Of a stretch of 44,800 bases of DNA, positions 8,878 to 31,606 are shown piece by piece (position 1 is the stretch's first letter; each line of letters starts with the position of its first letter). This DNA comes from Nitrospirota bacterium (lineage in GTDB: Bacteria; Nitrospirota; Thermodesulfovibrionia; Thermodesulfovibrionales; JdFR-88): the NCBI GenBank assembly GCA_021813405.1, contig JAKAKS010000005.1, forward strand, positions 1-44,800, read 5' to 3'. Below the pieces are notes generated by a model. The model saw only the letters and a program-made list of their open reading frames with translations, searched no databases and was not told the DNA's origin. A program made the position numbers and the translations under genes.

Positions 8878-9748
8878 TCCTGGCCTCCGCTTGAAAGCGG
8901 CCATGGAGGCCGAAAAGCCACTCCAGGCGGCGGGTGCTATAAACGCGATGACAGCCATTATGGCGGAGCGCACCGGCTTCCGGGCGCTATATCTTTCAGG
9001 GGCCGGAGTGGCCAACGCCTCGTTTGCCCTTCCGGACCTTGGGATTACTACATTAAATGACGTGCTTGAGGACGCACGGCGGATTACTTCTGCTTCAAGC
9101 CTTCCGCTTATAGTTGATGCTGATACAGGGTGGGGTGGCGCTTTCAATATCCAAAGGACGGTAAAGCAGATGATAAGCGCCTCGGTTGCGGCCATTCACA
9201 TTGAAGACCAGGTTGCGGCTAAACGGTGTGGGCAAAGGCCGGGAAAAAAGCTGGTCTCAACAAACGAAATGGTGGACCGGATAAAGGCCGCCGTCGATGC
9301 AAAGTCGGATAACGGCTTCATGGTAATAGCCCGGACGGACGCAGCGGCGGTGGAAGGGTTTGACGCGGCCCTGGAGAGGGCCTGCGCATACCGTGACGCC
9401 GGTGCCGACGTGCTGTTTCCGGAAGCATTGGGCGGCCTTGAACAATATGCAAAATTTGTGCGTCACATGCAGGCGCCCGTGCTGGCCAATATGACCGAAT
9501 TCGGTGTTGCGCCGCTTTACACTGTCCAGGAGCTTGCCGGGGCCGGCGTAAGCATTATTCTTTACCCGCTTTCGGCATTCCGAGCGATGAACCGGGCCGC
9601 ATTCGATGTGTACCGGGCCATACGCGCCAATGGCACGCAAAAAGACATGCTGGCAATTATGCAGACCAGGGAAGAGCTGTATGAACTCCTGCGCTATTAT
9701 GATTACGAGCGTAAACTGGACCTGCTTTATCCCGGCGGGAAGCAATAA
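8867..9748 (+). CDS. prpB: 2-methylisocitrate lyase PrpB
   Basis: It cleaves 2-methylisocitrate to pyruvate and succinate, the last step of the methylcitrate cycle for propionyl-CoA disposal. The 293-residue protein matches PrpB along its length. Ser44-Gly45-Ala46-Gly47 form the substrate loop, Asp84 and Asp86 in VDADTGWGG bind the metal, and the catalytic loop KRCGQ contains Cys121. MVIARTDA, LFPEALG, LANMTEFG and LYPLSAFRAMNRAA are near-identical to the family. The C-terminus YDYERKLDLLYPG is also typical. Position 123 is Gln, where the PrpB/isocitrate lyase signature normally has His (KRCGH). The start ATG lies within the end of the upstream gene, which suggests translational coupling. prpC follows after 18 bases. 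Confidence 0.95.
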   Translation: MANSPGLRLKAAMEAEKPLQAAGAINAMTAIMAERTGFRALYLSGAGVANASFALPDLGITTLNDVLEDARRITSASSLPLIVDADTGWGGAFNIQRTVKQMISASVAAIHIEDQVAAKRCGQRPGKKLVSTNEMVDRIKAAVDAKSDNGFMVIARTDAAAVEGFDAALERACAYRDAGADVLFPEALGGLEQYAKFVRHMQAPVLANMTEFGVAPLYTVQELAGAGVSIILYPLSAFRAMNRAAFDVYRAIRANGTQKDMLAIMQTREELYELLRYYDYERKLDLLYPGGKQ

Positions 9749-17520: not shown

Positions 17521-17733
17521 TATTACCATTTGGCCCTTTCGTATTTGGCTAGCGGCAAAAAAGACCAGGCGATCGAGTCCCTTTCTGAAACTTTTCCTGT
17601 CCCCTTTCCTTCAGAACTTAATATTCATTTAATATTGCCGCAAACACAAAAAAGTATAATTTCCGCCTGGCAATTGCTTTCAATGCTAATGATAGGCGCA
17701 ACGCCTGGAATAACACCCCTCGGCGGCTGCTGA
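17461..17733 (+). pseudogene. Decayed second copy of prsT (signal peptide plus one TPR)
   Basis: A 90-codon frame beginning TTG and encoding a degraded PrsT-like signal peptide (MIRFECLMSYLGTFLRVPAC, compare MLRFKFLVACLGVFLLLASC in the intact gene). Directly after the Cys come YYHLALSYLASGKKDQAIESL, which matches the final TPR of prsT (YHLALAYSGQGNRAQAV). About 850 codons of repeats are therefore missing, and the rest of the frame has no TPR character. The simplest reading is a duplicated prsT that lost its interior by deletion and then decayed by frameshift. A short functional TPR lipoprotein or leader peptide is possible but less likely. Confidence 0.65.
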
Positions 17734-17869
17734 GGAAAGCATAGATTTTTTACCGGCCTGCTTTTTTCCAGGGGCTGGCAAGCAGTACGACAGAGAAAGA
17801 GCCGGGGGAAGGGATTGAAAGCCCCCGGTATTAATGAGGGCCTTCTCAGTCTTATGGGACTGAGAAGGC
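17718..17869 (+). promoter_or_regulatory. Four-hairpin leader of the export operon (candidate cis-acting RNA)
   Basis: Four inverted repeats in succession. First, CCTCGGC/GCTGAGG (17718-17735, 4-base loop, with six T residues 10 bases later). Second, CTGCTT/AAGCAG (17758-17785) with an inner CCAG/CTGG. Third, CCGGGGG/CCCCCGG (17802-17828). Fourth, GCCTTCTCAGTC/GACTGAGAAGGC (17840-17869), a perfect 12-base-pair stem with a 6-base loop that ends 42 bases before the chosen ATG of the first export gene. I do not recognise a known riboswitch class; in particular, cyclic di-GMP motifs were not found. Attenuation or elongation control is an inference. Confidence 0.55.
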
Positions 17870-17911
17870 GGAGCATTGCCGGACACAATGGGAAAGAGGA
17901 CGAGGGATCAG

Positions 17912-19195
17912 ATGAAATTGCTGTCGTTTCTGGCCGTCTGGTTAGTTGCTCTGTCTTGCATGGGTGCATTTTGTAAAGATGTTTGGGCGGGACAGTTTAG
18001 TATAAGCCCGTCTTTTTCCGTGCAGGAGCAGTTTGACGACAATGTTTTCCTGACGGAAAAAGACCGGAAAGCCGATTATATAACGCGTCTGATCCCTTCG
18101 GTGGTTTTAGATTATAAAGCGCCGTTGTGGAACTGGAACCTGGCGTACTCGCTTGATTTCCGGCATTTTGCCAAAAATACTGTGAGCGATAATTTTGCGC
18201 AGAACATCAATTTGCAGAACTCGACCGAGTTGATAAAAAAACTGTTTTATATAGACGCAAGCGACACGTACGCCAAGACTTCCTTGTCGCTTCCCATCAA
18301 CTACAGCCAGCAGAGCCTGTTCTTAAATCAGACAGACCAGAACATAGCTACTTTAAAACCATATTTCAAGCTTAAAACCGGACAGTCCACTACAGTTGCC
18401 GCGGGATATTCATATCAGAACATATGGTATAAAAGCGGGCTGGGGGTCAAAAAAAGTGTCAACAGTGTTTTTGTAGAGGCAAAGGATGATGTATCGCACT
18501 CTTTTGAGCTTAGCGCCGGGGGCTTATATCTGGCAGACAGCAACGGACTTCAGGATTATTATGATACGGATGTACATGTGGGCTCCAGGTACGTGTACTC
18601 GAACGGATCTGATCTCTTTTTTACGTTCGGCCATGGAAACTATGTTTTTGCCGAAAATGGCGGCAGCGGCGAATGGGCCTGGGACGCCGGAGCGGACCGC
18701 CGGTTTGCGGCGTTCTCCGCAAGGCTGGAGGCTTCTTCCGGCACAGTGGAGAACCCCTCCGGCCTGCCGGACAAAGTGGACACATACAGTGCCTCAATTA
18801 CAACAAGTTCCGCGAGGACCCCTGTTTCCGTCGGCCTGTCACTAAATGAGTACACGGACCTGGTAACAAAAGCGCTCAAGGACCGGTCGTACGGCATAAC
18901 CGGGACGGTTTCGCATAAATTTACCAGGGCCTTTAGGGGTTCTGTCAATCTGGAATTCCAGAGACTTGAGGACAAAGTGGCCATGTCTTATTCGAATTTA
19001 GTCATATCAGGCATGGCTCTTAACTGGCAAATCGCACGCAGGGCTGAACTCTCACTCGGTTACCAGTACATATACAGCCATTCTCCGCTGATCTCAATGG
19101 ACCGGTATCTGGATGACCAGGTTACGGCAGGGGTTACCTGGGCTTTTGGAAAAGAACATGCCGCCAGGCCTGAATCAAAAGGTGGCGCAATTTGA
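17912..19195 (+). CDS. Outer-membrane beta-barrel protein of the exopolysaccharide locus
   Basis: The protein of 427 residues has a signal peptide (start MKLLSFLAVWLVAL, cleavage likely after VWA) followed by alternating polar and hydrophobic strands. These include ISPSFSVQEQFDDNVFLTEKD near the N-terminus, typical of the beta-barrel porin 2 (BBP2_2) family and the outer-membrane protein of XrtA loci. The C-terminal strands are of the form ELSLGYQYIYSHS and VTAGVTWAFGKE. It probably helps the polysaccharide cross the outer membrane. I prefer ATG 17912 because the signal peptide then starts with Met-Lys and GAGGGA lies just upstream; ATGs at 17876 and 17888 are in frame. It is the first gene of the export operon. 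Confidence 0.8.
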   Translation: MKLLSFLAVWLVALSCMGAFCKDVWAGQFSISPSFSVQEQFDDNVFLTEKDRKADYITRLIPSVVLDYKAPLWNWNLAYSLDFRHFAKNTVSDNFAQNINLQNSTELIKKLFYIDASDTYAKTSLSLPINYSQQSLFLNQTDQNIATLKPYFKLKTGQSTTVAAGYSYQNIWYKSGLGVKKSVNSVFVEAKDDVSHSFELSAGGLYLADSNGLQDYYDTDVHVGSRYVYSNGSDLFFTFGHGNYVFAENGGSGEWAWDAGADRRFAAFSARLEASSGTVENPSGLPDKVDTYSASITTSSARTPVSVGLSLNEYTDLVTKALKDRSYGITGTVSHKFTRAFRGSVNLEFQRLEDKVAMSYSNLVISGMALNWQIARRAELSLGYQYIYSHSPLISMDRYLDDQVTAGVTWAFGKEHAARPESKGGAI

Positions 19196-19256: not shown

Positions 19257-20114
19257 ATGATAATGGGAAAAAGAAATATTCGCATATTGGTGGTCCTGAG
19301 TCTTTTTTTAACTATGGGATGGGCATCTCTTGCCTATGCCGGGCAGTACGTGATAGGGGATGATGACATGCTTAGCATTTCCGTTTGGAAAGAGCCGGAG
19401 CTAAGTGTTAACGTGCCCGTAAGGCCGGACGGGATGATATCGGTGCCCCTGTTGGGCGACGTCAAGGCTGCTGGCAAAACTCCTCAGCAGCTCAAGACCC
19501 TTCTTGAAAGTATGTACGCCAGATACACAGAGGCGCCGGTCGTAAGCGTTATTGTGACCAAGGTAAATAGTTTTGTAGTGTATGTCTTTGGTGGCGGCAT
19601 ATCCCAGCAGCCGGCGGGCAGTGCGGCGTCCAGTCCGCAGACAGGCGTTTTTGTTTTCAAGAGAAACACTACCCTTTTACAGCTGCTTTCCAGGCTGGGC
19701 AGCCTTGGCAACGCGGACCTGAAAAAGAGCGCTGTGATACGAAACGGCAAAAAACTGAATGCTGATTTTTACCGGCTTTTCATCAAGGGTGACGTGACCC
19801 AGGACGTAATGCTTGAGCCCGGGGATTTCATATACATCCCAAGCAATTTTGGAACCGCCATCCGGGTTGTGGGGGCGGTAAAGAAGCCTGGTATTTTCCC
19901 TTATGAGGAGCATATGACCGTTCTTGATGCCGTGCTTACCGCGGGCGGGTTTACAGACTATGCCAGCCAGAACGACGTCTTTGTAGAAAGAAAGGAAGGC
20001 GGCAAGATAATCAGTATCAGGGTATTGCTTAAGGAAGTAATGAATGGCGATGTGAAAGAAAATGTTTCTTTGGACCCGGGTGACATGGTTATAGTCAAAT
20101 CCGGAATATTCTAG
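19257..20114 (+). CDS. Polysaccharide export protein (Wza/XrtA type)
   Basis: A 285-residue periplasmic or outer-membrane export protein. A signal peptide ends at AYA-GQ. The poly-export domain follows (YVIGDDDMLSISVWKEPELS, VPVRPDGMISVPLLGDVKAAGKTPQQL). A first SLBB-like domain is interrupted by a Gly/Ser/Ala-rich stretch, and a second SLBB domain is complete (RVVGAVKKPGIFPYEE, ENVSLDPGDMVIVKSG). There is no lipobox, unlike classical Wza. GGGAG lies before the ATG. It forms the outer-membrane or periplasmic conduit and works with the chain-length protein encoded next. Confidence 0.92.
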   Translation: MIMGKRNIRILVVLSLFLTMGWASLAYAGQYVIGDDDMLSISVWKEPELSVNVPVRPDGMISVPLLGDVKAAGKTPQQLKTLLESMYARYTEAPVVSVIVTKVNSFVVYVFGGGISQQPAGSAASSPQTGVFVFKRNTTLLQLLSRLGSLGNADLKKSAVIRNGKKLNADFYRLFIKGDVTQDVMLEPGDFIYIPSNFGTAIRVVGAVKKPGIFPYEEHMTVLDAVLTAGGFTDYASQNDVFVERKEGGKIISIRVLLKEVMNGDVKENVSLDPGDMVIVKSGIF

Positions 20115-20137
20115 TAAATTCATTGGGGGACTCTAGC

Positions 20138-21676
20138 ATGAGCGGAGAAAGCAGCTCGTTGGATATAAAAGACTATCTGGCCGTACTGCACGAAAAGAGG
20201 TATGTGGCGCTTGCGGCCGGCGCTGCCGTGCTTTCGATATTTGTTATGGCCTCATACCTTTGGCCAAAGTCTTACAAGGCCAGTTCCACTGTATTTGTAC
20301 AAAGGGGTGCGTTCATTCAGTCCCTCACAAAAAACAGCGGCAGCATCGATGGCGAGCTGGGAGTAATTAAAAACAGTATAACAAGCAGAATGATTGTCGA
20401 CAGCGTACTTAAAAAGTTGAACCTGGATCTGACCGCAGGGAATGCCGGCCGGTATGAGGCTCTCATTAACAACGTCCGGAAGAACCTCGATGTGAAGGTG
20501 AAGGAAGGCAGAGGCGACAATGTAGACATGTTCACACTGTCATATGAGGATCCGGATCCACGAAGGGCAAGGGACGTAGTTAACACTCTTGTCAATGAAT
20601 ATATCGAGCAGAGTGTGGCGCAGCAAAGAAACAACGCCATCAACGCATACGACTTTCTTAATAGCCAGCTCCAGAGCTATAAAGAAAAACTCGATGACTC
20701 GGACCGGCAGGTCGAAGAGTTCAGGAAGCAACATCCAGGGATGTCCATGCAGGCCAGCGCCGTCCCGGCTGCGGGCCTGGCGGCTCTGCAGTCTGACGCC
20801 ATTAATGACGAGGTAAAGCTCAGGAATCTGCAAAACCAGGAAGAGAGCCTTGAAATGGAGATATCGGGAAAGAAGAGTATAACATCCTCCGGACTTAGCG
20901 GCGGTCCGGATTCGCCCGATGCCAGGCTGGACCGGTTGAACGAAGAACTTATGGTGCTTAAAACCAGATATACCGACAACTATCCCGATGTTATCGTGAA
21001 AAAAGCTGAAATCGCGAAGCTTAAAAAACAGATTCAGCAGGGAAAAGATGGCCAGGCATTAAAAAACGGTCCGATTTACCAGCGGGTGAAAGACGAGCTT
21101 GAGCAGGTGCGCTCGAAAATCGGAGACATGAAATTGCGCCTGGCCGCGATATCAAATCAGGAAAAACAGATCGGCATGTCATCGGGGGGAATGCCACAGG
21201 ATATGGAGGAATGGGACAATATCCAGCGGAACAGGGACGGTTTTCAAAAGACATACGATGACATCCTCCAGAAACTTGAGGCCGCAAGGGTGGAAAAAAA
21301 TCTGCAGATGGGCGGCAACAGCTCTGTTTTAAATGTGGTAGACCCTGCCGTGCTGCCGGTAATACCTGATAAACCCAACAGGGTAAAGCTGATGGCACTG
21401 GGCCTTGTCCTGGGCCTGTGCGCCGGAATCGGCGCGGCCATCGGACTGGACTATATTGAAAAGCCGTACAGGAGCGAGAACCAGGTTGAAAGGGAGCTCC
21501 GGCTGCCTGTGCTTATCTCCGTCCCCCGGATGACATCGGAAGAAGACCGGAGGGCCTCACGGAAAAAGGACCTCAGGATATTTGGCTTTGCCGGAGTTTA
21601 TTTGATTGTTGTGATGGCTCTTCTGGCCAGGGAGATACTTTTCCGCTTTATGGGAATCAGGATATCTATTTTTTAG
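20138..21676 (+). CDS. Chain-length determinant protein (Wzz/XrtA type)
   Basis: An inner-membrane polysaccharide co-polymerase of 512 residues. A Wzz domain at the N-terminus (DIKDYLAVLHEKRY) leads into TM1 (VALAAGAAVLSIFVMASYLW). A long periplasmic coiled-coil region follows, then TM2 (VKLMALGLVLGLCAGIGAAI) and a third hydrophobic segment near the end (FAGVYLIVVMALLAREIL). The Pro-rich approach to TM2 (VVDPAVLPVIPDKPNRVK) is characteristic. The start is ATG 20138 with GGGGGA 7 bases upstream; a TTG at 20123 lacks a site. The kinase domain is not fused but encoded by the following gene. Confidence 0.92.
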   Translation: MSGESSSLDIKDYLAVLHEKRYVALAAGAAVLSIFVMASYLWPKSYKASSTVFVQRGAFIQSLTKNSGSIDGELGVIKNSITSRMIVDSVLKKLNLDLTAGNAGRYEALINNVRKNLDVKVKEGRGDNVDMFTLSYEDPDPRRARDVVNTLVNEYIEQSVAQQRNNAINAYDFLNSQLQSYKEKLDDSDRQVEEFRKQHPGMSMQASAVPAAGLAALQSDAINDEVKLRNLQNQEESLEMEISGKKSITSSGLSGGPDSPDARLDRLNEELMVLKTRYTDNYPDVIVKKAEIAKLKKQIQQGKDGQALKNGPIYQRVKDELEQVRSKIGDMKLRLAAISNQEKQIGMSSGGMPQDMEEWDNIQRNRDGFQKTYDDILQKLEAARVEKNLQMGGNSSVLNVVDPAVLPVIPDKPNRVKLMALGLVLGLCAGIGAAIGLDYIEKPYRSENQVERELRLPVLISVPRMTSEEDRRASRKKDLRIFGFAGVYLIVVMALLAREILFRFMGIRISIF

Positions 21677-21712
21677 AGCGCATGGACTTATATTTTTTTC
21701 ATGGAGGGCCAA

Positions 21713-22603
21713 TTGAGCAGGATTGAAAAATCTCTGGAAGAGGCTGTAAAGGCCAGGCAGACGGCCCTGAGGGCCAAGGCGCACGAGGCGGGCAGTCCAG
21801 CAGAAATTTACACTGAGGACACAAAATTCCGTCCAGCAGAGATTCCTGTTGTCAAGGATGAAGATGTGGACGGGCGCATAGCCTGCATCAGGGAGCCCAA
21901 CTCCTATGTTGCTGAACAGTTCAGAAAACTTCGCGCGCGCATAAAAGCCGCGCCGGGCGGAGCGCCCAGATCCATAATGATTACCAGCTCCGGCATAGGG
22001 GAGGGAAAGACGGTGACGTCCGTAAACCTTGCCGCCGCGCTTGCAAATGAGCTGGATAATACTGTGCTTCTTGTGGACACTGACCTCAGGAACCCGATGG
22101 TGCACAAATACCTGGGCCTGCTGCCAAAAGCTGGACTCAGCGATTATTTAAAAGGCGTGGTTGAGCTGAAGGACGTGCTGATTAAGACTGGCATCGGAAG
22201 GCTTGTAGTACTGCCTGCTGGCAACGTCCCTGAAAACCCCTCAGAGCTGCTCTCCTCCATGAGGATGGCAGCGCTTGCGGAAGAGCTTAAGCAAAGGTAC
22301 AGCGACAGATATGTTATATACGATTCGTCACCGCTTCTGGCCACGGCCGATTCCGTTACGCTGGCGCGGCATATGGACGGCATCCTGTTTGTGATGAGCG
22401 CCGGGCGCACGCCGAACAAGTCCGCGCAGAGGGCAATGCAGCTTTTGAAGGGCCATCGGGTCCTGGGCGTTGTGTTCAACAATGTCCAGGAGCAGCTTGC
22501 AAGAAGCATGTATCCTTATCCATACGAGCTGGCGGGGGCGTATGCATATGGCAAAAAAGCCGGTACCCCGGACGGCGCGGGAAACGGGGCTGACGTCAAA
22601 TAA
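21713..22603 (+). CDS. Tyrosine autokinase of the CpsD/ExoP family (XrtA associated)
   Basis: A cytoplasmic bacterial tyrosine kinase of about 296 residues that phosphorylates itself and partners with the chain-length protein. The N-terminal SRIEKSLEEAVKARQ helix is typical of XrtA-associated kinases. Walker A is SSGIGEGKT, Walker A' is VLLVDTDLRNP, and Walker B is VIYDSSPLL. The tyrosine cluster near the end (MYPYPYELAGAYAYGKK) is the expected autophosphorylation site. I prefer TTG at 21713 because GGAGGG lies 4 bases before it. The ATG at 21701 overlaps this binding site and gives an N-terminus four residues longer. Stop and next start overlap by one base. Confidence 0.9.
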   Translation: MSRIEKSLEEAVKARQTALRAKAHEAGSPAEIYTEDTKFRPAEIPVVKDEDVDGRIACIREPNSYVAEQFRKLRARIKAAPGGAPRSIMITSSGIGEGKTVTSVNLAAALANELDNTVLLVDTDLRNPMVHKYLGLLPKAGLSDYLKGVVELKDVLIKTGIGRLVVLPAGNVPENPSELLSSMRMAALAEELKQRYSDRYVIYDSSPLLATADSVTLARHMDGILFVMSAGRTPNKSAQRAMQLLKGHRVLGVVFNNVQEQLARSMYPYPYELAGAYAYGKKAGTPDGAGNGADVK

Positions 22604-23838
22604 TGTATCTTTCATTCTTCGGACTTGAGCGCAAGCCTTTTCAGTTAGCGCCGGATCCAGGCTCCTTTTTTTTAAGCCGCGAGCATAAAAAGGCGCTTAC
22701 CCATCTGACGTACGGGATAACGTTTAATCAGGGGTTCATGCTTGTGACCGGGGAAGTCGGCATAGGCAAGACGACCATCATCAGAAAAATCATAAAGGAA
22801 CTCGACAGAGATGTGCGTATAGCCAAAATCACAAATACGCGCGTTTCTTCAAACCAGCTATGGGCGCTTATCAATGACGATTTTGGGCTGGATTCCGCCG
22901 GTAAAGATAAGACCCTGATGCTGAAAGAGCTTACGAATTTCCTGATAAGCGAATATTCCCAGGGGCACCGGTGCATGCTTGTTATCGATGAGGCCCAAAA
23001 CCTCACCCCGGGCCTGCTGGAGGAAATCAGGCTGCTGTCAAATCTGGAGACCGACAATTCGAAGCTCCTGCAGATCATACTTGTGGGGCAGCCGGAGCTG
23101 AGGGAAACCCTGGCCAGGCCGGAGCTCAGACAGCTAAGGCAGCGCATAAACATAAGCTGCCACCTGAACGCACTGTCAAAAAAAGAGACAAGCGACTATA
23201 TTTTTCACAGGCTTGAGAGCGCAGGGAACCGTGATGCCGCGGTATTCGAGGCTGGTGCCATAGATGCCATCTACGATTTCAGCAAAGGTATACCAAGGCT
23301 TGTCAATATAATTTGCGATTTCCTCTTCCTTGCGGCGTACGATGAGGGGGCCCGTACTATTTCCACCAATCTCGCCAACGAAGTGATTGGTGAAATAGAG
23401 CAGGAGCATAAATACTGGAACAGCGCACAACCAAAAGCAGATATGCCGCCCGATGGCATGAAGGAAATGCTGCTCAGGCTCAAGGGGCTGGAGAAGGCGG
23501 TCCTGGAAAAAGTGCCGGACGGCAACGGAAGGCAACACGGTTCATCTGCGGAGGCGGCCATGGGCGACATGATGAAAAGAGTCATGAAAATTTTAAAGTG
23601 TGATATGGAGGCGGCCATTGGTGACATGGCGGAAAGGTTTATGGAAGCCCAGTCCAGGCTGCAATTGCATGAAAAAGGCGTTGAAGACAGGTTTGCCGCG
23701 CTTGAAAACGAACTGAGGCAACTCAGACTTTCGCTGCTTGTGAATGAGAAAAAGGGCAATATACGCCAAAAAACGCAAGCGGAAGCAATAACAAGGTTAA
23801 AAACAAAAAACCTATGGGGCAGGATATTCAGCAAATGA
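22603..23838 (+). CDS. ExeA-like AAA ATPase of XrtA exopolysaccharide loci
   Basis: A 411-residue protein beginning MYLSFFGLERKPFQLAPDPG, the hallmark of the general-secretion/PEP-CTERM ATPase family. Walker A is GEVGIGKTT (near residue 50) and Walker B is MLVIDEAQNL. Sensor and lid segments follow (LLSNLETDNSKLLQIILVGQ, LRQRINISCHL, KGIPRLVNIICDFLFLAAYD). The C-terminal 130 residues are highly charged and probably coiled-coil. The role in polysaccharide or exosortase systems is not established. ExeA helps assemble a secretin, so a role in building the envelope complex is plausible. It is translationally coupled to the kinase gene upstream. Confidence 0.9.
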   Translation: MYLSFFGLERKPFQLAPDPGSFFLSREHKKALTHLTYGITFNQGFMLVTGEVGIGKTTIIRKIIKELDRDVRIAKITNTRVSSNQLWALINDDFGLDSAGKDKTLMLKELTNFLISEYSQGHRCMLVIDEAQNLTPGLLEEIRLLSNLETDNSKLLQIILVGQPELRETLARPELRQLRQRINISCHLNALSKKETSDYIFHRLESAGNRDAAVFEAGAIDAIYDFSKGIPRLVNIICDFLFLAAYDEGARTISTNLANEVIGEIEQEHKYWNSAQPKADMPPDGMKEMLLRLKGLEKAVLEKVPDGNGRQHGSSAEAAMGDMMKRVMKILKCDMEAAIGDMAERFMEAQSRLQLHEKGVEDRFAALENELRQLRLSLLVNEKKGNIRQKTQAEAITRLKTKNLWGRIFSK

Positions 23839-24329
23839 ACTGGTTTGCCCTGTACGTCAAGTCCCGCCATGAGTTCACTACCTGCGGAGAGCTTGAAAAA
23901 AAGGGGATCGAGACTTTCCTGCCACAGGTAAAAAAGCTAAGAAGGTGGTCGGACAGGAATCAGTTCGTTGATTTCCCTCTTTTCCCGGGATACGTTTTCG
24001 TGCATTTGCTGGCGGGCCCGGAAAGTTTCACGCGGGTTTTAAAGACGCGCGGCGCGGTAAGCCTTGTTTCCGCCATTACCGGCCAACCCGCTCCGGTTGA
24101 TGACCAGGAGATGAAATCGCTTCGCATAATGGTGGACTCAGGTGAAAAACTGGACCTTGCACCCCATCTTAAAGAAGGGGAAAGGGTGCGCATCAAGGGA
24201 GGGCCGTTCAAGGGGGCCCAGGGTGTGCTGACCAAAAAAGAGGACCAGTATATTTTCGCAGTGAATGTGGAGCTGCTTGGCAGGAGCCTCTGCGCCAGAA
24301 TATACTCCGACGATATAGCCCCCCTGTAA
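23835..24329 (+). CDS. NusG-family elongation factor (RfaH/UpxY/LoaP-like)
   Basis: A 164-residue NusG paralogue. The NGN domain covers MNWFALYVKSRHEFTTCGELEKKGIETFLP through FPLFPGYVFVHL, and a KOW motif follows (EGERVRIKGGPFKGAQGVL). Such specialised paralogues suppress termination within long polysaccharide operons, usually after loading at a leader element. The start is ATG 23835, which overlaps the upstream stop (ATGA) and has AGGA 9 bases before it. An ATG at 23814 lacks a site. Its presence inside an operon whose leader contains four hairpins fits a self-acting processive antitermination model, but that link is an inference. Confidence 0.9.
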   Translation: MNWFALYVKSRHEFTTCGELEKKGIETFLPQVKKLRRWSDRNQFVDFPLFPGYVFVHLLAGPESFTRVLKTRGAVSLVSAITGQPAPVDDQEMKSLRIMVDSGEKLDLAPHLKEGERVRIKGGPFKGAQGVLTKKEDQYIFAVNVELLGRSLCARIYSDDIAPL

Positions 24330-24370: not shown

Positions 24371-25558
24371 ATGAGCACAAGCCCGGTCAGGAGAATTTCA
24401 GTCGGACGAAGGCAGCCAAAGCTTCCTAGCGACAGCATATTCTGTTTTATAGACAGGGACAGCAACCTCTTCATGGAAAGCTATTTCCGTGAGGCCATAA
24501 TACTGGAGCGCAGGAGGTCGGCCCGCTCCGGGAAACCTTTTTTAACCATGCTCGTGGACCTGGGAAAGCTTTCCCCGTCCGTTAAACCCGATGTTATTCA
24601 AAAGGTGGCAGGCTCCCTTTTTGCAAACACCCGCGACACGGACATAAAAGGGTGGTTCCGGTACAACACCATAATTGGTGTTATCTTTACGGAGACGGAT
24701 GTCAGCCAGCGCGATTTGATACATCAGAAGGTAGCGGAAGGCATCACCGGCCTGTGCGGGAAGGAAACGGCTGACGGGATCGGCATTTCTTTTCATATAT
24801 TCCCGGATGTTGAGAACGCAGATTTTTTAAAAGACGGAGCCGAAGCGGGATATTCATGGGAAAAGATAGAGTCTTATCTGCTTGAGATGAACGAGCGCAG
24901 AAGGGGCGCTCGCATTATAAAAAGGGTTCTGGACATAGTGGGCGGCATCCTCTTTCTGCTGCTTGCAATGCCCTTTTTCATAATAATCCCTGTGCTTATA
25001 AAGCTTACGTCAAAGGGGCCGGTTATATTTAAACAGGAGCGCATCGGCCTTCATGGGAAGCGATTCACCTTTCTGAAATTCAGGTCAATGCGCATCGGTC
25101 AGTCCGATGCTATACACAGGGCATTTGTAAAAGATCTCATCCGGGGAAGCAACGGCGCTCCGGATGATAAAGGGGCCGGGCAAGACGTGCCGGACAAAAA
25201 AGTGTACAAGATTAAAAATGACCCCAGGATCACGCCCATTGGGAATTTTTTGAGAAAATCTAGCCTTGATGAGCTGCCGCAGTTCATCAATGTGCTGAGG
25301 GGGGAAATGTCTTTTGTCGGGCCCCGCCCCCCCATACCGTACGAGGTGAAAGATTATGACATCTGGCACCTGAGGCGCATACTGGACGTCAAGCCCGGCC
25401 TCACCGGGCTATGGCAGGTTAAAGGCAGGAGTTCCATAGGTTTTGACGAGATGGTGCGCCTGGATCTGCAGTATGCAAGGACGTGGACCTTGTGGATGGA
25501 CCTCAAGCTTATAGTACAAACTCCATTTGTCATGCTGAGGGGCAGAGGGGCTTACTGA
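24371..25558 (+). CDS. Polyprenyl-phosphate sugar transferase with a degenerate GGDEF-like N-terminus
   Basis: The C-terminal half is a bacterial sugar transferase that loads the first sugar phosphate on undecaprenyl phosphate. One membrane segment (about 188-210) is followed by IFKQERIGLHGKRFTFLKFRSM, SSLDELPQFINVLRGEMSFVGPRP and LDVKPGLTGLWQVKGRSS. The N-terminal 150 residues resemble a GGDEF domain: SYFREAIILERRRSARSGKP, then LTMLVDL, then RDTDIKGWFRYNTIIGVIFT. The GGDEF signature itself is lost, with FRYNT-I in its place, so it cannot make cyclic di-GMP but might bind a ligand or partner. A 30-residue acidic insert interrupts the catalytic part. AAGGA precedes the ATG. Confidence 0.9.
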   Translation: MSTSPVRRISVGRRQPKLPSDSIFCFIDRDSNLFMESYFREAIILERRRSARSGKPFLTMLVDLGKLSPSVKPDVIQKVAGSLFANTRDTDIKGWFRYNTIIGVIFTETDVSQRDLIHQKVAEGITGLCGKETADGIGISFHIFPDVENADFLKDGAEAGYSWEKIESYLLEMNERRRGARIIKRVLDIVGGILFLLLAMPFFIIIPVLIKLTSKGPVIFKQERIGLHGKRFTFLKFRSMRIGQSDAIHRAFVKDLIRGSNGAPDDKGAGQDVPDKKVYKIKNDPRITPIGNFLRKSSLDELPQFINVLRGEMSFVGPRPPIPYEVKDYDIWHLRRILDVKPGLTGLWQVKGRSSIGFDEMVRLDLQYARTWTLWMDLKLIVQTPFVMLRGRGAY

Positions 25559-25673
25559 GAGTCTCTTCATTTCACCGTGCTGAAATTAAAAACTGAGGAC
25601 TGCACCAGATGAACATGGATACAAGATATTTTCTTTTTTTTAAATCTTTTGAACTGCGAACATGGAGGGGAAT

Positions 25674-26675
25674 GTGATCAAGATTGGCGTTCTGGGTTAT
25701 GGGTATTGGGGCCCAAACATAGTCAGGAACTTTAATCAGGCTGACGGGGCCAAGGTTGTTTCGATATGCGACCAGAGCCAGAAGTCGCTAAACAGGGCAA
25801 GAAAGGCCAACCCATATATAGCGATGACTGATAACTGCGAGGAGACACTGTCCTCTCCGGATATTGACGCAGTGGCAATCGTTACCCCTGTCTCCACTCA
25901 TTTTGAGCTCGCAAAAAAGGCGCTCATGAATGGAAAACATGTCTTTGTGGAAAAACCTTTCACCGCTTCCATCGCGGAGGCCGAGGAACTGGTGAACCTT
26001 GCCGAGAGGAAAAATCTGATAATTATGGTGGACCACACCTTCATCTTTACCGGCGCCGTACAGAAGATGAAGCAGCTCATAGACGACGAGGTGCTTGGGG
26101 AGCCTTATTACTATGATTCCGTCAGGGTGAACCTGGGGCTTTTTCAGTCTGACGTCAATGTGGTATGGGACCTGGGGCCGCACGATTTTTCTATTCTGGA
26201 CTACCTTATCAAGGAAAAGCCGGTGGCGATATCGGCAAACGGCAAGGCACACGTGAACGGCAAAGAGGACACCGCCTACATCACGGCGTATTTTAACAAC
26301 AAGATGATAGCCCATTTCAACGTAAACTGGCTTTCTCCCGTAAAGGTTAGGACAACTCTGATAGGCGGAGAGAAGAAGATGCTTGTCTGGAACGACCTGG
26401 AAGCGGATGAAAAAATAAAGATGTATGACAAGGGCGTAGAGGTGAAAAATGGCGAGGGCAGATACGATATGCTTGTCAGTTACCGCTCCGGGGACATGTG
26501 GGTGCCAAGGATAGACCAGAAAGAAGCACTCAAATCGGAGGCGGAGTATTTTGTTTCCTGCGTCGAGAACAGCGAGACCCCCATAAATGACGGACATGCC
26601 GGCATGCGGGTAGTGCGAATGCTAGATGCCTGCGACAGGTCGCTTGCGAATAACGGGGCGATGGTGCGGCTGTGA
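25674..26675 (+). CDS. Gfo/Idh/MocA-family sugar-nucleotide oxidoreductase
   Basis: An NAD-dependent dehydrogenase. The Rossmann motif GVLGYGYWGPNIVRNF is at the N-terminus, and HVFVEKPFTASIAEA carries the catalytic EKP. The C-terminal sheet includes YYYDSVRVNLG and VWDLGPHDFSILDYL. Followed by an acyltransferase and an aminotransferase, it most likely oxidises C3 of a UDP-N-acetylhexosamine, as WbpB/WlbA or GnnA do. I chose GTG 25674 because GGAGGGG lies just before it. An ATG at 25662 is overlapped by that site and has none of its own. The end overlaps the next gene. Confidence 0.88.
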   Translation: MIKIGVLGYGYWGPNIVRNFNQADGAKVVSICDQSQKSLNRARKANPYIAMTDNCEETLSSPDIDAVAIVTPVSTHFELAKKALMNGKHVFVEKPFTASIAEAEELVNLAERKNLIIMVDHTFIFTGAVQKMKQLIDDEVLGEPYYYDSVRVNLGLFQSDVNVVWDLGPHDFSILDYLIKEKPVAISANGKAHVNGKEDTAYITAYFNNKMIAHFNVNWLSPVKVRTTLIGGEKKMLVWNDLEADEKIKMYDKGVEVKNGEGRYDMLVSYRSGDMWVPRIDQKEALKSEAEYFVSCVENSETPINDGHAGMRVVRMLDACDRSLANNGAMVRL

Positions 26676-27157
26676 AATATCTGTCCATATCTGAAGACGT
26701 GCGGCTTGGCGAAAATGTGAAGCTTGCAAATTTCGTTAACTTGTATGGCTGCTCCGTTGGGGATAACACAAAAATCGGGACCTTTGTCGAGGTGCAAAAA
26801 AACGCCACGATTGGCAGAAACTGCAAGATACAGAGCCATACTTTCATTTGCGAAGGGGTGGCCATCGAGGACGACGTCTTCATCGGCCACAGCGTAACCT
26901 TCATTAACGACAAGTATCCCAGGGCCACTTCAGCCAGCGGCGCCCTGCAGACCGAGGCGGACTGGAAAGTGGTGCCAACAGTAGTAAAAAAAGGGGCGTC
27001 CATAGGTTCAGGTTCCACGATACTGTGCAACGTGACCATCGGGGAGGGTGCTATCGTAGGCGCCGGAAGTGTGGTCACCAGGGACGTGCCTTCCGGGGCC
27101 ATAGTTGCCGGAAATCCGGCTAAATTCATGAGGATGGCAAGCGATGACGACAAATGA
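26672..27157 (+). CDS. LbH-fold sugar N-acyltransferase (WbpD/WlbB-like)
   Basis: A 161-residue left-handed beta-helix acyltransferase built from hexapeptide repeats (ENVKLANFVNLYGCSVGDNTKIG, and later SIGSGSTILCNVTIGEGAIVGAG), ending with VVTRDVPSGAIVAGNPAK. The loop FINDKYPRAT is characteristic of the WbpD/WlbB group, which acetylates the 3-amino group of UDP-3-amino sugars. It starts with GTG overlapping the stop of the oxidoreductase and itself overlaps the aminotransferase gene by 14 bases. The three therefore form a tight functional cassette. Confidence 0.88.
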   Translation: MKYLSISEDVRLGENVKLANFVNLYGCSVGDNTKIGTFVEVQKNATIGRNCKIQSHTFICEGVAIEDDVFIGHSVTFINDKYPRATSASGALQTEADWKVVPTVVKKGASIGSGSTILCNVTIGEGAIVGAGSVVTRDVPSGAIVAGNPAKFMRMASDDDK

Positions 27158-28340
27158 AATGATACCATTTCTGGACCTGGCAACGCCGCACCTGGAGCTC
27201 GAGGAGGAAATGGTCTCGCTCTTCAGGGACGCACTGAGGTCGAGCAGGTTCATTGGCGGGCCCACGGTGGAAGGATTCGAAAAAGATTTTGCCGCCTTCT
27301 GCGGCGCGGACCATTGCGTGGGGGTTGGCAGTGGCACCGACGCCCTGAGGTTTGCGTTGATAGCGGCCGGAGTAAAAGCTGGAGACACGGTAGTGACGGT
27401 GTCCAATACCTTTATTGCCACCACCGAGGCTATCTCCCAGGCGGGCGCGGTCCCGGCCTTTGTGGACGTAGATGAGCGGACGTGCAATATGGATGCAGAA
27501 AAGCTCCGGGAATTTCTGGAAACCGGATGCGAGTCCTGTAAAAAGGGCGGGCTGGTCAGCAAAAAAACCAAAAGCCCTGTTACCGCTGTGGTTCCGGTGC
27601 ATCTTTACGGGCAGATGGCGGACATGGACCCCATAGAGGAGCTTGCCGAAAAGTATGGCATGATTGTGATTGAGGATGCCTGCCAGGCGCACGGTGCTAA
27701 ATACTTTTCCAGGCGCCAAAACCGGTGGAGGACGGCTGGTTCGATGGGTGCCGCAGCCGCGTTCAGCTTCTATCCGGGGAAAAATCTTGGGGCCTGCGGA
27801 GAAGCCGGAGCAGTCACGACTGGAAACCCGGAGATGGCCGCAAAGATTCGCATGCTCAGGGACCACGGGCAGTCAAAAAAATATTACCACGAAATTGAGG
27901 GATATAATGGAAGGCTGGATGCGATACAGGCCGGTTTTTTACAGCTGAAGCTTAGAAAGCTTTCCGGGTGGAATGAGCTGCGTCGTCAGAATGCCTCACG
28001 GTATGGCGCGTTGCTTGGGGGCGTGGATAGGCTGGTTTTGCCTTACGAGCCGCAGTGGTCAAAAGGTGTTTACCACTTATACGTTGTCCGCACTGAAATG
28101 CGGGGGGGGTTGCAGGATTATCTAAGCGGCAAAGGGATATCAACCGGGCTCCATTACCCGGTTCCTCTGCATCTGCAAAACGCATACAGCGGGGTTCTGG
28201 GGTACCGGAAAGGGGATTTGTCCACATCGGAAAGGTTGGCCGCGGAGATACTTTCCCTGCCCATGTATCCGTCCCTTTCAGACGCCCAGATGGAGAAAGT
28301 CGCCGGAAGCATCAGGGACTTTTTCAAAGGCCGGGACTAA
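27144..28340 (+). CDS. DegT/DnrJ/EryC1 sugar aminotransferase
   Basis: A PLP-dependent aminotransferase of 398 residues for nucleotide-linked keto sugars. Typical segments are IPFLDLATPH, SSRFIGGPTVEGFEKDFAAF, VGVGSGTDALRFAL, VHLYGQMADM, VIEDACQAHGA and the Schiff-base lysine Lys213 in FSFYPGKNLGACGEAG. YNGRLDAIQAGFLQLKL follows. With the two preceding enzymes it should install the 3-amino group (WbpE/WlbC or GnnB type). AGGA lies 9 bases before the ATG. It is close to but not overlapping the FemAB gene. Confidence 0.92.
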   Translation: MTTNEMIPFLDLATPHLELEEEMVSLFRDALRSSRFIGGPTVEGFEKDFAAFCGADHCVGVGSGTDALRFALIAAGVKAGDTVVTVSNTFIATTEAISQAGAVPAFVDVDERTCNMDAEKLREFLETGCESCKKGGLVSKKTKSPVTAVVPVHLYGQMADMDPIEELAEKYGMIVIEDACQAHGAKYFSRRQNRWRTAGSMGAAAAFSFYPGKNLGACGEAGAVTTGNPEMAAKIRMLRDHGQSKKYYHEIEGYNGRLDAIQAGFLQLKLRKLSGWNELRRQNASRYGALLGGVDRLVLPYEPQWSKGVYHLYVVRTEMRGGLQDYLSGKGISTGLHYPVPLHLQNAYSGVLGYRKGDLSTSERLAAEILSLPMYPSLSDAQMEKVAGSIRDFFKGRD

Positions 28341-28375
28341 CTGCTTTTGATATTACTGCAGCGGATTAAGCAATC

Positions 28376-29404
28376 ATGAAGATAATAAATCCCCTGGAAT
28401 TTCCCTCGTGGGATGATATGCTGCTTCCGCATAATGGCGCGTCTTTTTTTCATTCATCGCAATGGGCCAGGCTCCTGGCGGAGGCCTATGATTACAGACC
28501 CATGTATTTCACTCTTTTTGACGGGGGCAGGCTCGTTGCTACGGTCCCCGTTATGGAGGTGAAGAGTTTTTTGACCGGGAAAAGGGGCGTCAGCCTGCCG
28601 TTTACAGATTACTGCGAGCCTCTTGCCGAAGGGGGGCAGCAGTTCCAGCTTTTGTTTGACGGTCTGGCCGAATATGGCAGGCGGGCCGGCTGGAAACACA
28701 TCGAATTACGCGGGGCATCTAGTTTTTTAGAGGGTGTGCAGCCTTCCTCAAGCTCATATGGCCACGTACTCGATCTCTCAAAGGGGGTGGAATACGTTTT
28801 TCCCGGCCTCAGGGACAGCACAAAAAGGAATATCAAAAAGGCGCGCAAAGAAGGAGTCGAGGTGGTGATTGATGCCTCGGCGCACGCTGTGGATGAATTT
28901 TATCGCCTGAACTGCCTTACAAGAAAAAAACACGGGCTTCCTCCTCAGCCGTTTGGCTTTTTCAGGGGATTGTTCAGAAATGTGATAGACAAAGGTTCCG
29001 GTTTTGTAGCAATTGCGTCATATAAAGGGAAAACAGTGGCCGGGTTGGTGTTCCTGCATTCTGGCAGAAAGGCCATTTATAAATACGGGGCCTCGGACGA
29101 GAATTACAATTTCCTCAGGGCCAATAACCTGGTTATGTGGGAGGCTATCAATTGGTACGCGAGGAACGGCTACAGCCAGCTCTGCCTTGGCAGGACCGAG
29201 CCTGAAAACAGCGGACTCAGGCAGTTCAAAACGGGATGGGGGGCATCTGAGAGGGCTATAAACTATTACCGCTACGATTTAGAGAAAGAGGCCTTTGTGC
29301 AAGCTCAATTGAGCGTATCAGGCGCGCATAACGCCATTTTCAGAAAAATGCCGGTGCCGCTCCTCAGGGCAGCCGGGGCTGTTATGTACAGGCACATGGG
29401 GTAG
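28376..29404 (+). CDS. FemAB-like protein of XrtA loci (GNAT fold)
   Basis: A 342-residue protein of the FemAB-related family found in exosortase/PEP-CTERM loci. Features are FFHSSQWARLLAEAYDYRP near the N-terminus, GVSLPFTDYCEPL, the positively charged stretch STKRNIKKARKEGVEV, TRKKHGLPPQPFGFFRGLF, the second GNAT core (FVAIASYKGKTVAGLVFLH), and KYGASDENYNFLRANNLVMW. FemAB enzymes transfer amino acids from aminoacyl-tRNA to peptidoglycan. In exopolysaccharide loci the acceptor is unknown, possibly an amino sugar. It ends YRHMG, like the second FemAB protein downstream. Confidence 0.88.
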   Translation: MKIINPLEFPSWDDMLLPHNGASFFHSSQWARLLAEAYDYRPMYFTLFDGGRLVATVPVMEVKSFLTGKRGVSLPFTDYCEPLAEGGQQFQLLFDGLAEYGRRAGWKHIELRGASSFLEGVQPSSSSYGHVLDLSKGVEYVFPGLRDSTKRNIKKARKEGVEVVIDASAHAVDEFYRLNCLTRKKHGLPPQPFGFFRGLFRNVIDKGSGFVAIASYKGKTVAGLVFLHSGRKAIYKYGASDENYNFLRANNLVMWEAINWYARNGYSQLCLGRTEPENSGLRQFKTGWGASERAINYYRYDLEKEAFVQAQLSVSGAHNAIFRKMPVPLLRAAGAVMYRHMG

Positions 29405-29413
29405 GCGGATCAT

Positions 29414-31606
29414 ATGAGCAGCTTGCAAAGAAAATTATATTACCAGGTAAAGCCTTTTATCCCAAGACAGGTCCAATTGCTGCTCAGGAGGAAAAGGGCC
29501 TTATGGATGCTCAGCAGATGCGCGGATATCTGGCCCATAGCCCAAAAGGCTGGCAGCCCACCCCGTCATTGGCGTGGCTGGCCCGAGCAGAAAAGTTTTG
29601 CTTTCATATTGACACATGACGTGGAAACGGCGGCAGGCCAGGAAAAATGCCATGATCTGGCACATCTGGAGGAACGGCTTGGGTTCCGGTCATCTTTCAA
29701 TTTTGTCCCGGAGAGATATGAAGTTTCCCCAGAGCTTCGCCATTATCTTGAGAACAGAGGATTTGAGGTTGGGGTGCACGGATTGTGCCATGATGGCAGA
29801 TACCTGGATTCCAGAGAAATATTCAGTGAAAGGGCTGTGAGAATAAACCGTTATCTGCGGGAATGGAAGGCGTCTGGTTTCCGTTTCCCTTCCATGTTGC
29901 ACAATCTCGACTGGATTCACGATCTGGAACTGGAATATGACCTGTCCACTTTCGATACCGACCCTTTTGAGCCGCAATCCGATGGCATGAATACCATTTT
30001 CCCTTTTTTTGTACCTGGCCCCACTTTGAGCGGGGGGTATGTAGAACTGCCATATACACTTCCTCAGGATTTCACCCTTTTCATAATCTTGCGGGAGAGG
30101 AATATAGATATCTGGAAAAAGAAACTGGACTGGATTGCGGAGCGTGGAGGCATGGCCCTTGTCAACGTCCATCCGGACTACATGAACTTCGGAACAGGCA
30201 AAAAGAAGGCCGAGGAATTTCCAGCAACCCTCTATAACGAATTCCTCAACTATGTGAAAAACAGATATGAGGGCCGGTTCTGGCAAGCGCTGCCAAGGGA
30301 TGCCGCGCGCTGGTTCAGAAAGGAAATGGGCAATGCACCGCATTCAACTTTATCTTCCGCCCGCCAGCGCGCAGTTAAGGATATTCCACCAGCGGACCTG
30401 CCACAGCGCAGTGCAGGCAAGGCCAAGGCCTCCGGGGTTAAGGCGTGCATGGTGGCATATTCTTTTTACGAGACGGATACCCGGATAATGCGTTATGCAG
30501 AGGCGCTTGCCGCGCGCGGAGACCAGGTGGACGTTTTTTCCCTTGCTATGGAAGGCACTGCGCCGGTGGAAAAGATAAACGGCGTCACCGTTTATCGTAT
30601 CCAGAGGCGGGACATAAACGAAAAGACAAAATTCTCCTACCTGGGCAGGCTTATGTCTTTCCTTTTACGCTCGTCATGGAGTCTGTCAAAAAATTCAATT
30701 CGCAGGCCATATGACATCATCCATGTGCACTCAGTGCCAGACTTTGAGGTGTTTGCGGCCTTGTTTCCAAAGCTTCGGGGCTCCAAGTTGATCCTTGATA
30801 TCCACGACATAGTTCCGGAGTTTTATGCAAGCAAGTTTGGCACCAGCCACCTGTCCTTCACATTCAAGGCCCTCAAGCAGGTCGAGCGGTGGTCCACTGG
30901 TTTTTCAGACCACGTCATCATAGCCAATCACATCTGGGAAAGGGTCATCACCTCCAGGTCCGTCCCGTCCGGGAAGTGCTCAACATTTCTTAATTATCCG
31001 GACCGCCGCGTTTTCAACCCGCTAAAGCGTAAAAGGCAGGCCGACGGACGGTTTGTAATGATGTACCCAGGCACTCTCAACTGGCACCAGGGGCTGGATA
31101 TTGCAATAAAAGCGTTCGATTTGATAAAGACAGAGGTCCCGGAGGCGGAGTTCCATATCTACGGCAAAGGGCCTGCCGGGGAGGCCTTAAAGAGCCTGGT
31201 AAAAGAACGGTCTTTGGAAGACCGGGTGAAGTTTATGGATACAGTCCCGGTGGAACAGATAGCGGGCATTATGGCGGATGCTGATCTTGGAATTGTCCCA
31301 AAGCGCAACGACTCTTTTGGCGGTGATGCTTTCAGCACGAAGATATTTGAGTTCATGGCGCTTGGAGTGCCTGTTGTTGCCGCCAACACACGTATAGACA
31401 CCTTTTATTTCAACGACTCTCTCCTTAAGTTCTTTCAATCCGGGGATGAAAAAAGCCTTGCCGCAGCCATGTTGGAGATGATAAAAAACCATGGCTTTCG
31501 CCGGCAACTTGCGGCCAACGCCCTGACCTATGTGGCAGGGCAGAGCTGGGATGTCAAGCGTCAGGACTATCTGGACCTGGTGGACCGGCTGGTCATGGGC
31601 CGCTGA
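29414..31606 (+). CDS. Fusion of a polysaccharide-deacetylase-like domain and a GT4 glycosyltransferase
   Basis: A 730-residue two-domain protein. Residues about 60-300 form a NodB-like deacetylase domain: FAFILTHDVETAAG (Asp69), SSFNFVPERY, and GVHGLCHDGRY with the His122-x3-His126 metal pair. Residues about 350-725 are a GT-B glycosyltransferase of family 4. They show MVAYSFYETDTRIMRYAEAL, IIHVHSVPDFEVFAALF, MMYPGTLNWHQGLDIAIKAF, FHIYGKGPAGEAL, and the donor-site loop DAFSTKIFEFMALGVPVVAA. A Ser/Ala/Pro-rich linker joins them. The deacetylase part could remove acetyl groups from the sugar acceptor before or after transfer. Separate genes are more usual. The start lies 9 bases after the FemAB stop. 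Confidence 0.88.
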   Translation: MSSLQRKLYYQVKPFIPRQVQLLLRRKRALWMLSRCADIWPIAQKAGSPPRHWRGWPEQKSFAFILTHDVETAAGQEKCHDLAHLEERLGFRSSFNFVPERYEVSPELRHYLENRGFEVGVHGLCHDGRYLDSREIFSERAVRINRYLREWKASGFRFPSMLHNLDWIHDLELEYDLSTFDTDPFEPQSDGMNTIFPFFVPGPTLSGGYVELPYTLPQDFTLFIILRERNIDIWKKKLDWIAERGGMALVNVHPDYMNFGTGKKKAEEFPATLYNEFLNYVKNRYEGRFWQALPRDAARWFRKEMGNAPHSTLSSARQRAVKDIPPADLPQRSAGKAKASGVKACMVAYSFYETDTRIMRYAEALAARGDQVDVFSLAMEGTAPVEKINGVTVYRIQRRDINEKTKFSYLGRLMSFLLRSSWSLSKNSIRRPYDIIHVHSVPDFEVFAALFPKLRGSKLILDIHDIVPEFYASKFGTSHLSFTFKALKQVERWSTGFSDHVIIANHIWERVITSRSVPSGKCSTFLNYPDRRVFNPLKRKRQADGRFVMMYPGTLNWHQGLDIAIKAFDLIKTEVPEAEFHIYGKGPAGEALKSLVKERSLEDRVKFMDTVPVEQIAGIMADADLGIVPKRNDSFGGDAFSTKIFEFMALGVPVVAANTRIDTFYFNDSLLKFFQSGDEKSLAAAMLEMIKNHGFRRQLAANALTYVAGQSWDVKRQDYLDLVDRLVMGR

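Follow-up and report, generated by a model that had tools for sequence, protein, structure and literature searches.

A hairpin-and-core element at the head of a Nitrospirota polysaccharide operon, a candidate loading site for the UpxY-family NusG paralogue of the same operon

The operon, its NusG paralogue and its leader

The window analysed here (the whole stretch of 44,800 nucleotides, positions 1 to 44,800 of the forward strand of contig JAKAKS010000005.1, from a Nitrospirota bacterium of the order Thermodesulfovibrionales) carries a polysaccharide operon on the plus strand. The first gene (17912-19195) encodes a PEP-CTERM-associated outer-membrane protein (TIGR03016; NCBIfam, 138 bits), for which an ATG at 17912 was preferred by eye as the start to a TTG at 17876. 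It is followed by genes for an XrtA/PEP-CTERM exopolysaccharide export protein, a chain-length determinant, a tyrosine autokinase and an ATPase (19257-23838; NCBIfam), and then by a gene for a UpxY-family NusG paralogue at 23814-24329 (NF033644, 128.2 bits against a cut-off of 100), in agreement with a preliminary description of the locus that had placed a NusG-family factor at 23835. The paralogue gene stands between the genes for the XrtA ATPase and a sugar transferase, that is, within the polysaccharide operon. Genes for that sugar transferase, a dehydrogenase, an aminotransferase, a FemAB protein and a glycosyltransferase (24371-31606; NCBIfam) are assigned to the operon on the basis of spacing and strand.

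The paralogue scores below the cut-offs of the models for RfaH (TIGR01955, 83.2 bits against 144.5) and for LoaP (NF033641, 65.5 bits against 125). Its AlphaFold model (pLDDT 89.7) contains a beta-barrel KOW domain, so that no sign of the autoinhibition typical of RfaH is predicted, although a fold switch could escape a structure prediction. This fits a report of monomorphic RfaH homologues that are encoded near their targets and are without some of the ops-binding residues (PMC13015549). Of the RfaH residues that contact ops, K10 is kept as K or R in this family and R23 is mostly K or R, but H20 (replaced by E or R) and R73 (variable) are not conserved; G74 of RfaH is also kept. It follows that the contacts made by the family must differ from those of RfaH.

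Upstream of the operon, the stretch AATATTGCCGCAAACACAAAAAAGTATAAT at 17631-17660, with TATAAT at 17655-17660, is the likely promoter; it is unchanged in a same-genus relative, was not listed by a sigma-70 scan of the window, and would place the start of transcription near 17667. A sigma-54 promoter suspected by eye at 17668-17683 (TGGCA...TTTCA) was rejected, since its -12 part and spacing do not fit. The promoter-like sequence AATATTnCCGCAAACACAAAAAAGTATAAT occurs in two identical copies in the genome, the one at 17631-17660 and another at C16:69138-69167 (locus L293; about 1530-1580 in L002), the second lying directly before a gene read by eye as EAL-domain-like, hinting at common control of the leader and that gene and at a link to c-di-GMP.

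The preliminary description had drawn attention to four successive hairpins in the leader, and had treated them together as a possible loading or attenuation element. All four are present in the sequence, but they are of very unequal quality. Stem 1 (CCTCGGC/GCTGAGG, 17718-17735, 7 bp) and stem 3 (CCGGGGG/CCCCCGG, inside 17801-17829) differ from shuffled sequence when taken alone (z -3.3 and -2.5, respectively); stem 2 is weak, and is replaced by an alternative fold when stems 1-3 are folded by themselves. Jointly, stems 1-3 (17718-17831) are no more stable than might be expected of shuffled sequence (z -1.34, 19 of 200 shuffles as stable), and in a relative with 77% identity in the export protein (G009) stems 1 and 2 are not retained and stem 3 is present only in shifted form. 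They were accordingly rejected as parts of the element and are regarded as leader sequence outside it. Stem 4, at 17840-17869, is as perfect as had been claimed, with 12 Watson-Crick pairs (13 if the closing U-G is counted) around the loop TTATGG; it reaches a z of -6.18, with none of 200 shuffles as stable, and it is mostly because of this stem that the leader as a whole has a z of -4.

Stem 4 runs directly into a conserved 3' flank (GGCGGAGCATTGCCGG at 17867-17882) that lies partly beyond position 17869, where the preliminary description had ended. The unit that emerges is therefore not a set of four hairpins but one hairpin (17840-17869, with its conserved stem formed by 17842-17850 and 17859-17867) followed by the ops-like core GGCGGAGCATTG at 17867-17878, whose most conserved part (GCGGAGC-A-N-T-G) reaches 17878. 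Within the core, GC-GGA-GC at 17868-17874 is prone to form a mini-hairpin; counted from the predicted pause, GG occupies positions -11/-10 (17867-17868), T17877 is -1 and G17878 is +1. Folding this core as DNA with ViennaRNA is uninformative, since the program yields no fold for GCGAAGC either, despite the well-known stability of that sequence. The 3' end of the element is about 30 nt upstream of the ATG at 17912, and the element stands at the head of the operon, with the paralogue gene 6 kb downstream.

Conservation of the element and its genomic setting

Only stem 4, among the four stems of the leader, belongs to a conserved family. Together with its 3' flank it is kept in the same-genus relative (G001) and in G009, in which compensatory changes give CTTTCCGGTC/GACCGGGAAG in place of CTTCTCAGTC/GACTGAGAAG; at more distant loci the hairpin and core are found mostly just 3' of a NusG-paralogue gene. 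A first covariance model, built from eight of these elements and used at a threshold of E <= 0.01, matched 89 of the 176 genomes of the order, and a second, built from 67 elements, matched 112 of 395 genomes of the phylum Nitrospirota, other classes included; the E-values are rough (short calibration), and many of the genomes are fragmented bins. In its own genome the element has one strong copy (58.9 bits), the next best places being the reverse strand of the same hairpin (20.4 bits) and a site at 17.1 bits.

The stem covaries. Across the 67 aligned elements, the ten-pair stem has standard pairs in 92.8% of its cells, and eight of the ten pairs have changed on both sides, in 48 cells as compared with a shuffled mean of 9.7 (0 of 500 shuffles); the alignment was fitted to the covariance model and these counts lean towards it, but sliding the pairing partners abolishes the signal. 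In a check that makes no use of an alignment, 55 of 70 loci showed a hairpin that ends precisely at the core (p <= 0.05 against shuffled upstream sequence), a count that leaves out the window's own copy, which was tested separately as described above. The loop varies in sequence and from 3 to more than 40 nt in length, and G-U pairs are numerous, which together point to an RNA structure rather than to a duplex operator. In eight loci with loops of roughly 18-32 nt (L135, L139, L140, L157, L159, L161, L163 and L168), a second small hairpin, for example TCCGCAAAATGCGGA, is found within the main loop.

Conservation does not stop at the base of the stem. GCGGAGC is present in all 67 aligned elements (an invariance that partly reflects the way in which candidates were found), T stands at -1 in 66 and G at +1 in 54, and conservation is a little higher in the 3' arm than in the 5' arm (1.48 and 1.19 bits per column, respectively). 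The bias towards the 3' arm and the invariant, unpaired GCGGAGC indicate that more than pairing is probably read. Rfam offers no match to the window at the gathering threshold and chance matches only below it, in line with the earlier remark that no known riboswitch was in evidence, and nothing relevant was retrieved from the window and its relatives at gathering and permissive thresholds. The suggestion that the leader might represent a new RNA class is supported by the conservation, the covariation and the genomic associations described below; the homologue comparison and Rfam scan proposed with it yielded a conserved, covarying stem 4 and no unrelated family, and so did not overturn it.

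The genomic setting ties the element to genes of the UpxY type. Among 70 elements whose surroundings were retrieved, 37 stand no more than 300 nt downstream of such a gene and three no more than 100 nt upstream of one, in both cases on the strand of the gene; a further 28 have no paralogue gene in the DNA retrieved, in some cases owing to the end of a contig. Wherever a paralogue gene is near, the element is on its strand. Viewed from the genes, the core element is found within 160 nt in 22 of 30 UpxY-family loci. Across 61 genomes of relatives, element and paralogue occur together in 27 and are both missing from 29, while an element without a UpxY above the cut-off is seen in two genomes and the reverse in three (Fisher 9e-12, or 2e-8 outside the organism's own family, with shared ancestry ignored). 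At one locus (L261; G033 C2:814-877 and 1434-1492) elements flank a single UpxY-type gene, 40 nt before it and 35 nt after it, suggesting autoregulation combined with control of the downstream operon.

Most of the elements examined that lie away from a paralogue gene precede polysaccharide or XrtA genes (PrsT, export proteins, GMP_PMI, flippases, nucleotide-sugar enzymes, glycosyltransferases and TIGR03016), and a few precede other genes, such as ones resembling L-2-hydroxyglutarate oxidase. From this position before remote polysaccharide genes it follows that one paralogue probably acts on several operons in trans. The distance from the element to the next gene ranges from overlap with the gene start to more than 600 nt.

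A related element is found beyond the Nitrospirota. In 46 loci, mostly from Acidobacteriota and collected by a protein search with the paralogue, a sister element ending in CCCTGTAAGTGASGGGGCGRAGC lies 60-168 nt upstream of the paralogue gene in 26 cases, whereas the remaining 1.38 Mb of sequence searched gave eight matches. Some of these 46 loci had been used to derive the pattern, so that the first dozen matches are not independent. The acidobacterial form reads GGTTAGSTCAC-N-CCCTGTAAGTGASGGGGCGRAGC (loci L175-L222, 60-170 nt upstream of UpxY-type genes) and has a 5-bp stem whose first pair is compensatory (13 C-G, 6 G-C). An H-type pseudoknot between GGGT and ACCC in this form is only suggestive (258 of 5000 permutations, p about 0.05). 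A Methylomirabilota (NC10) locus carries GCGAAAGC.

Cores of the GGA and GAA types also meet within one organism. The genome that contributed the window has a second UpxY-type paralogue (L049, contig C35, minus strand), and about 70 nt downstream of it (about 8938-9007) there is a weak element of the GCGAAGC type with no good hairpin. The two cores might separate the regulons of the two paralogues; a search for a residue specifying GGA or GAA gave differences inseparable from the split between Nitrospirota and Acidobacteriota.

Relation to known recruitment sites

The preliminary description had pointed to both LoaP and RfaH as parallels, and of these the closer is RfaH with its ops/JUMPstart site, rather than LoaP with its UNCG hairpin. 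As in the E. coli galF-rfbB leader, a stem-loop stands directly upstream of a core in the leader of a polysaccharide operon; in JUMPstart the 3' arm of the stem runs into the ops core GCGGTAGCGTG, and here it runs into a GGCGG..AGC..TG core. The two also share GG at -11/-10, T-1/G+1, and two G-C pairs around a non-template GN(N)A loop (PMC5995543, PMC2864571). RfaH reads a mini-hairpin that the non-template strand of ops adopts around GGTA, and the pause is due to the flanking bases (PMC5995543). Free DNA oligonucleotides with GNA or GNNA loops closed by two G-C pairs, such as d(GCGAAGC), are extraordinarily stable (PMC4686876), and GCGGAGC, GCGAAGC, GCGAAAGC and the E. coli GCGGTAGC all fit this scheme; that the structure would also form in a transcription bubble at the present locus is our extrapolation from those oligonucleotides.

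The differences from ops and JUMPstart are equally clear. The ops 12-mer GGCGGTAGCGTG does not occur here: the window's GGCGGAGCATTG shares GGCGG..AGC..TG with it, but is without T6, the base that is flipped into RfaH. The GC-GGA-GC core is one base shorter, the covarying stem is longer and its loop variable, and the Nitrospirota element usually lies beside a paralogue gene. The covariance model for JUMPstart, RF01707, found no match in the window or its relatives at gathering or permissive thresholds, whereas an E. coli control scored 61.1 bits.

The UpxY proteins of Bacteroides belong to the same protein family as judged by NF033644, and their genes likewise lie inside or adjoining the polysaccharide operon that they control. 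The differences are that other phyla are concerned here, and that no UpxZ-like gene was seen among the genes examined. The leader sites of Bacteroides UpxY were reportedly characterised by Chatzidaki-Livanis (2009) and by Saba et al. (2024), as cited in PMC12691694. UpxY reads the paused polymerase through non-template DNA and the upstream DNA duplex, with nascent hairpins assisting. In Bacteroides, it prevents premature termination in the leader (PMC7819879). The present element probably works like the ops/JUMPstart sites and the Bacteroides UpxY sites, but falls outside RF01707. No description of it was found in the literature on RfaH, UpxY, LoaP and JUMPstart, our coverage of which was incomplete; the family of cis-elements looks new, and the type of mechanism familiar.

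Proposed mechanism, alternatives and implications

On this basis, the stretch 17840-17878 is probably (at a rough estimate, three chances in four) a two-part site at which polymerase pauses and the operon's own UpxY/RfaH-like NusG paralogue is loaded. An RNA polymerase starting near 17667 would transcribe the 12-13 bp hairpin, which would close at the RNA exit channel once the enzyme had reached T17877, where the consensus-pause signature (GG at -11/-10, T-1/G+1) predicts a pause. A hairpin whose foot adjoins the RNA-DNA hybrid is the arrangement found in hairpin-stabilised pauses, and the window has it in the register of ops. The paused complex would expose the non-template GC-GGA-GC, which may fold into a mini-hairpin in the manner of E. 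coli ops; the paralogue would then read the non-template DNA, the RNA hairpin or both, bind the polymerase and travel along with it. Polymerase so modified would be expected to resist pausing and termination across the long operon, to the proposed benefit of the downstream polysaccharide genes at 24371-31606.

It is unlikely that the paralogue instead binds the RNA hairpin itself once this has left the polymerase, with GCGGAGC as part of the RNA site or as a spacer and the non-template DNA uninvolved. In the dfn and mln operons of Bacillus velezensis, the NusG paralogue LoaP binds a leader RNA hairpin that is required for antitermination (PMC12691694); the stem of the present element covaries, and the CTD of its paralogue is predicted to form a beta-barrel like that of the NusG-RNA complex 8f5g. 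The LoaP hairpin, however, causes no pause and carries a UNCG loop, in place of which the window has TTATGG and the relatives a variety of loops; the paralogue falls well short of the LoaP cut-off; and it is the unpaired GCGGAGC, not the loop, that is most invariant, in a core and register that match a pause or ops site. A more improbable reading dispenses with the paralogue altogether, and makes the element a pause or an RNA-processing or stability element of polysaccharide operons that, for instance, synchronises a ribosome or another regulator. A hairpin with consensus-pause bases could by itself affect polymerase, some elements are far from any paralogue gene, and the window's copy ends close to the start codon of the first gene; but it would then be coincidence that the element sits so close to paralogue genes in two phyla and co-occurs with the paralogue across genomes, and the wide range of distances to the next gene argues against a role in translation.

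Two further readings have very little probability, about equally small. A stable hairpin of 12-13 bp in a leader could be an intrinsic terminator or attenuator that halts transcription unless a factor intervenes, yet GCGGAGCATTG follows it in place of a U-tract, terminator scans do not report it, and in every relative the conserved 3' flank is rich in G and C. For want of that U-tract, the attenuation half of the original proposal is unsupported, whereas conservation, covariation and genomic association lend its loading half good support. The perfect dyad of the window could likewise serve an ordinary transcription factor as an operator in duplex DNA, but the spacing of its arms varies between 3 and more than 40 nt among relatives, G-U pairs are common, and the element keeps to the strand of the nearby paralogue gene.

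A broader proposal, which we hold to be slightly less likely than not, is that the element belongs to an old and distinct class of composite loading signals, present in Nitrospirota, Acidobacteriota and possibly Methylomirabilota. The same bases would then be read in two forms, in the nascent RNA as a hairpin and in the non-template DNA as a GN(N)A mini-hairpin. The readers would be UpxY-type paralogues without RfaH-type autoinhibition, acting on remote polysaccharide operons as well as on their own. Were this so, ops/JUMPstart would be a single branch of a wider GC-GN(N)A-GC code for the recruitment of NusG paralogues.

NusG paralogues are widespread, and the recruitment sites of only a few (ops for RfaH, the hairpin of LoaP, and those of Bacteroides UpxY) have been worked out. 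The present element accounts for a conserved hairpin leader that is absent from Rfam, and supplies, for at least two further phyla, a sequence-defined candidate for the site where their paralogues load, such that the regulons of these paralogues (XrtA/PEP-CTERM exopolysaccharide operons) may be predictable straight from DNA. The occurrence of a GC-GN(N)A-GC core beside an RNA stem in these lineages suggests that this is a recurring design, and not an enterobacterial peculiarity.
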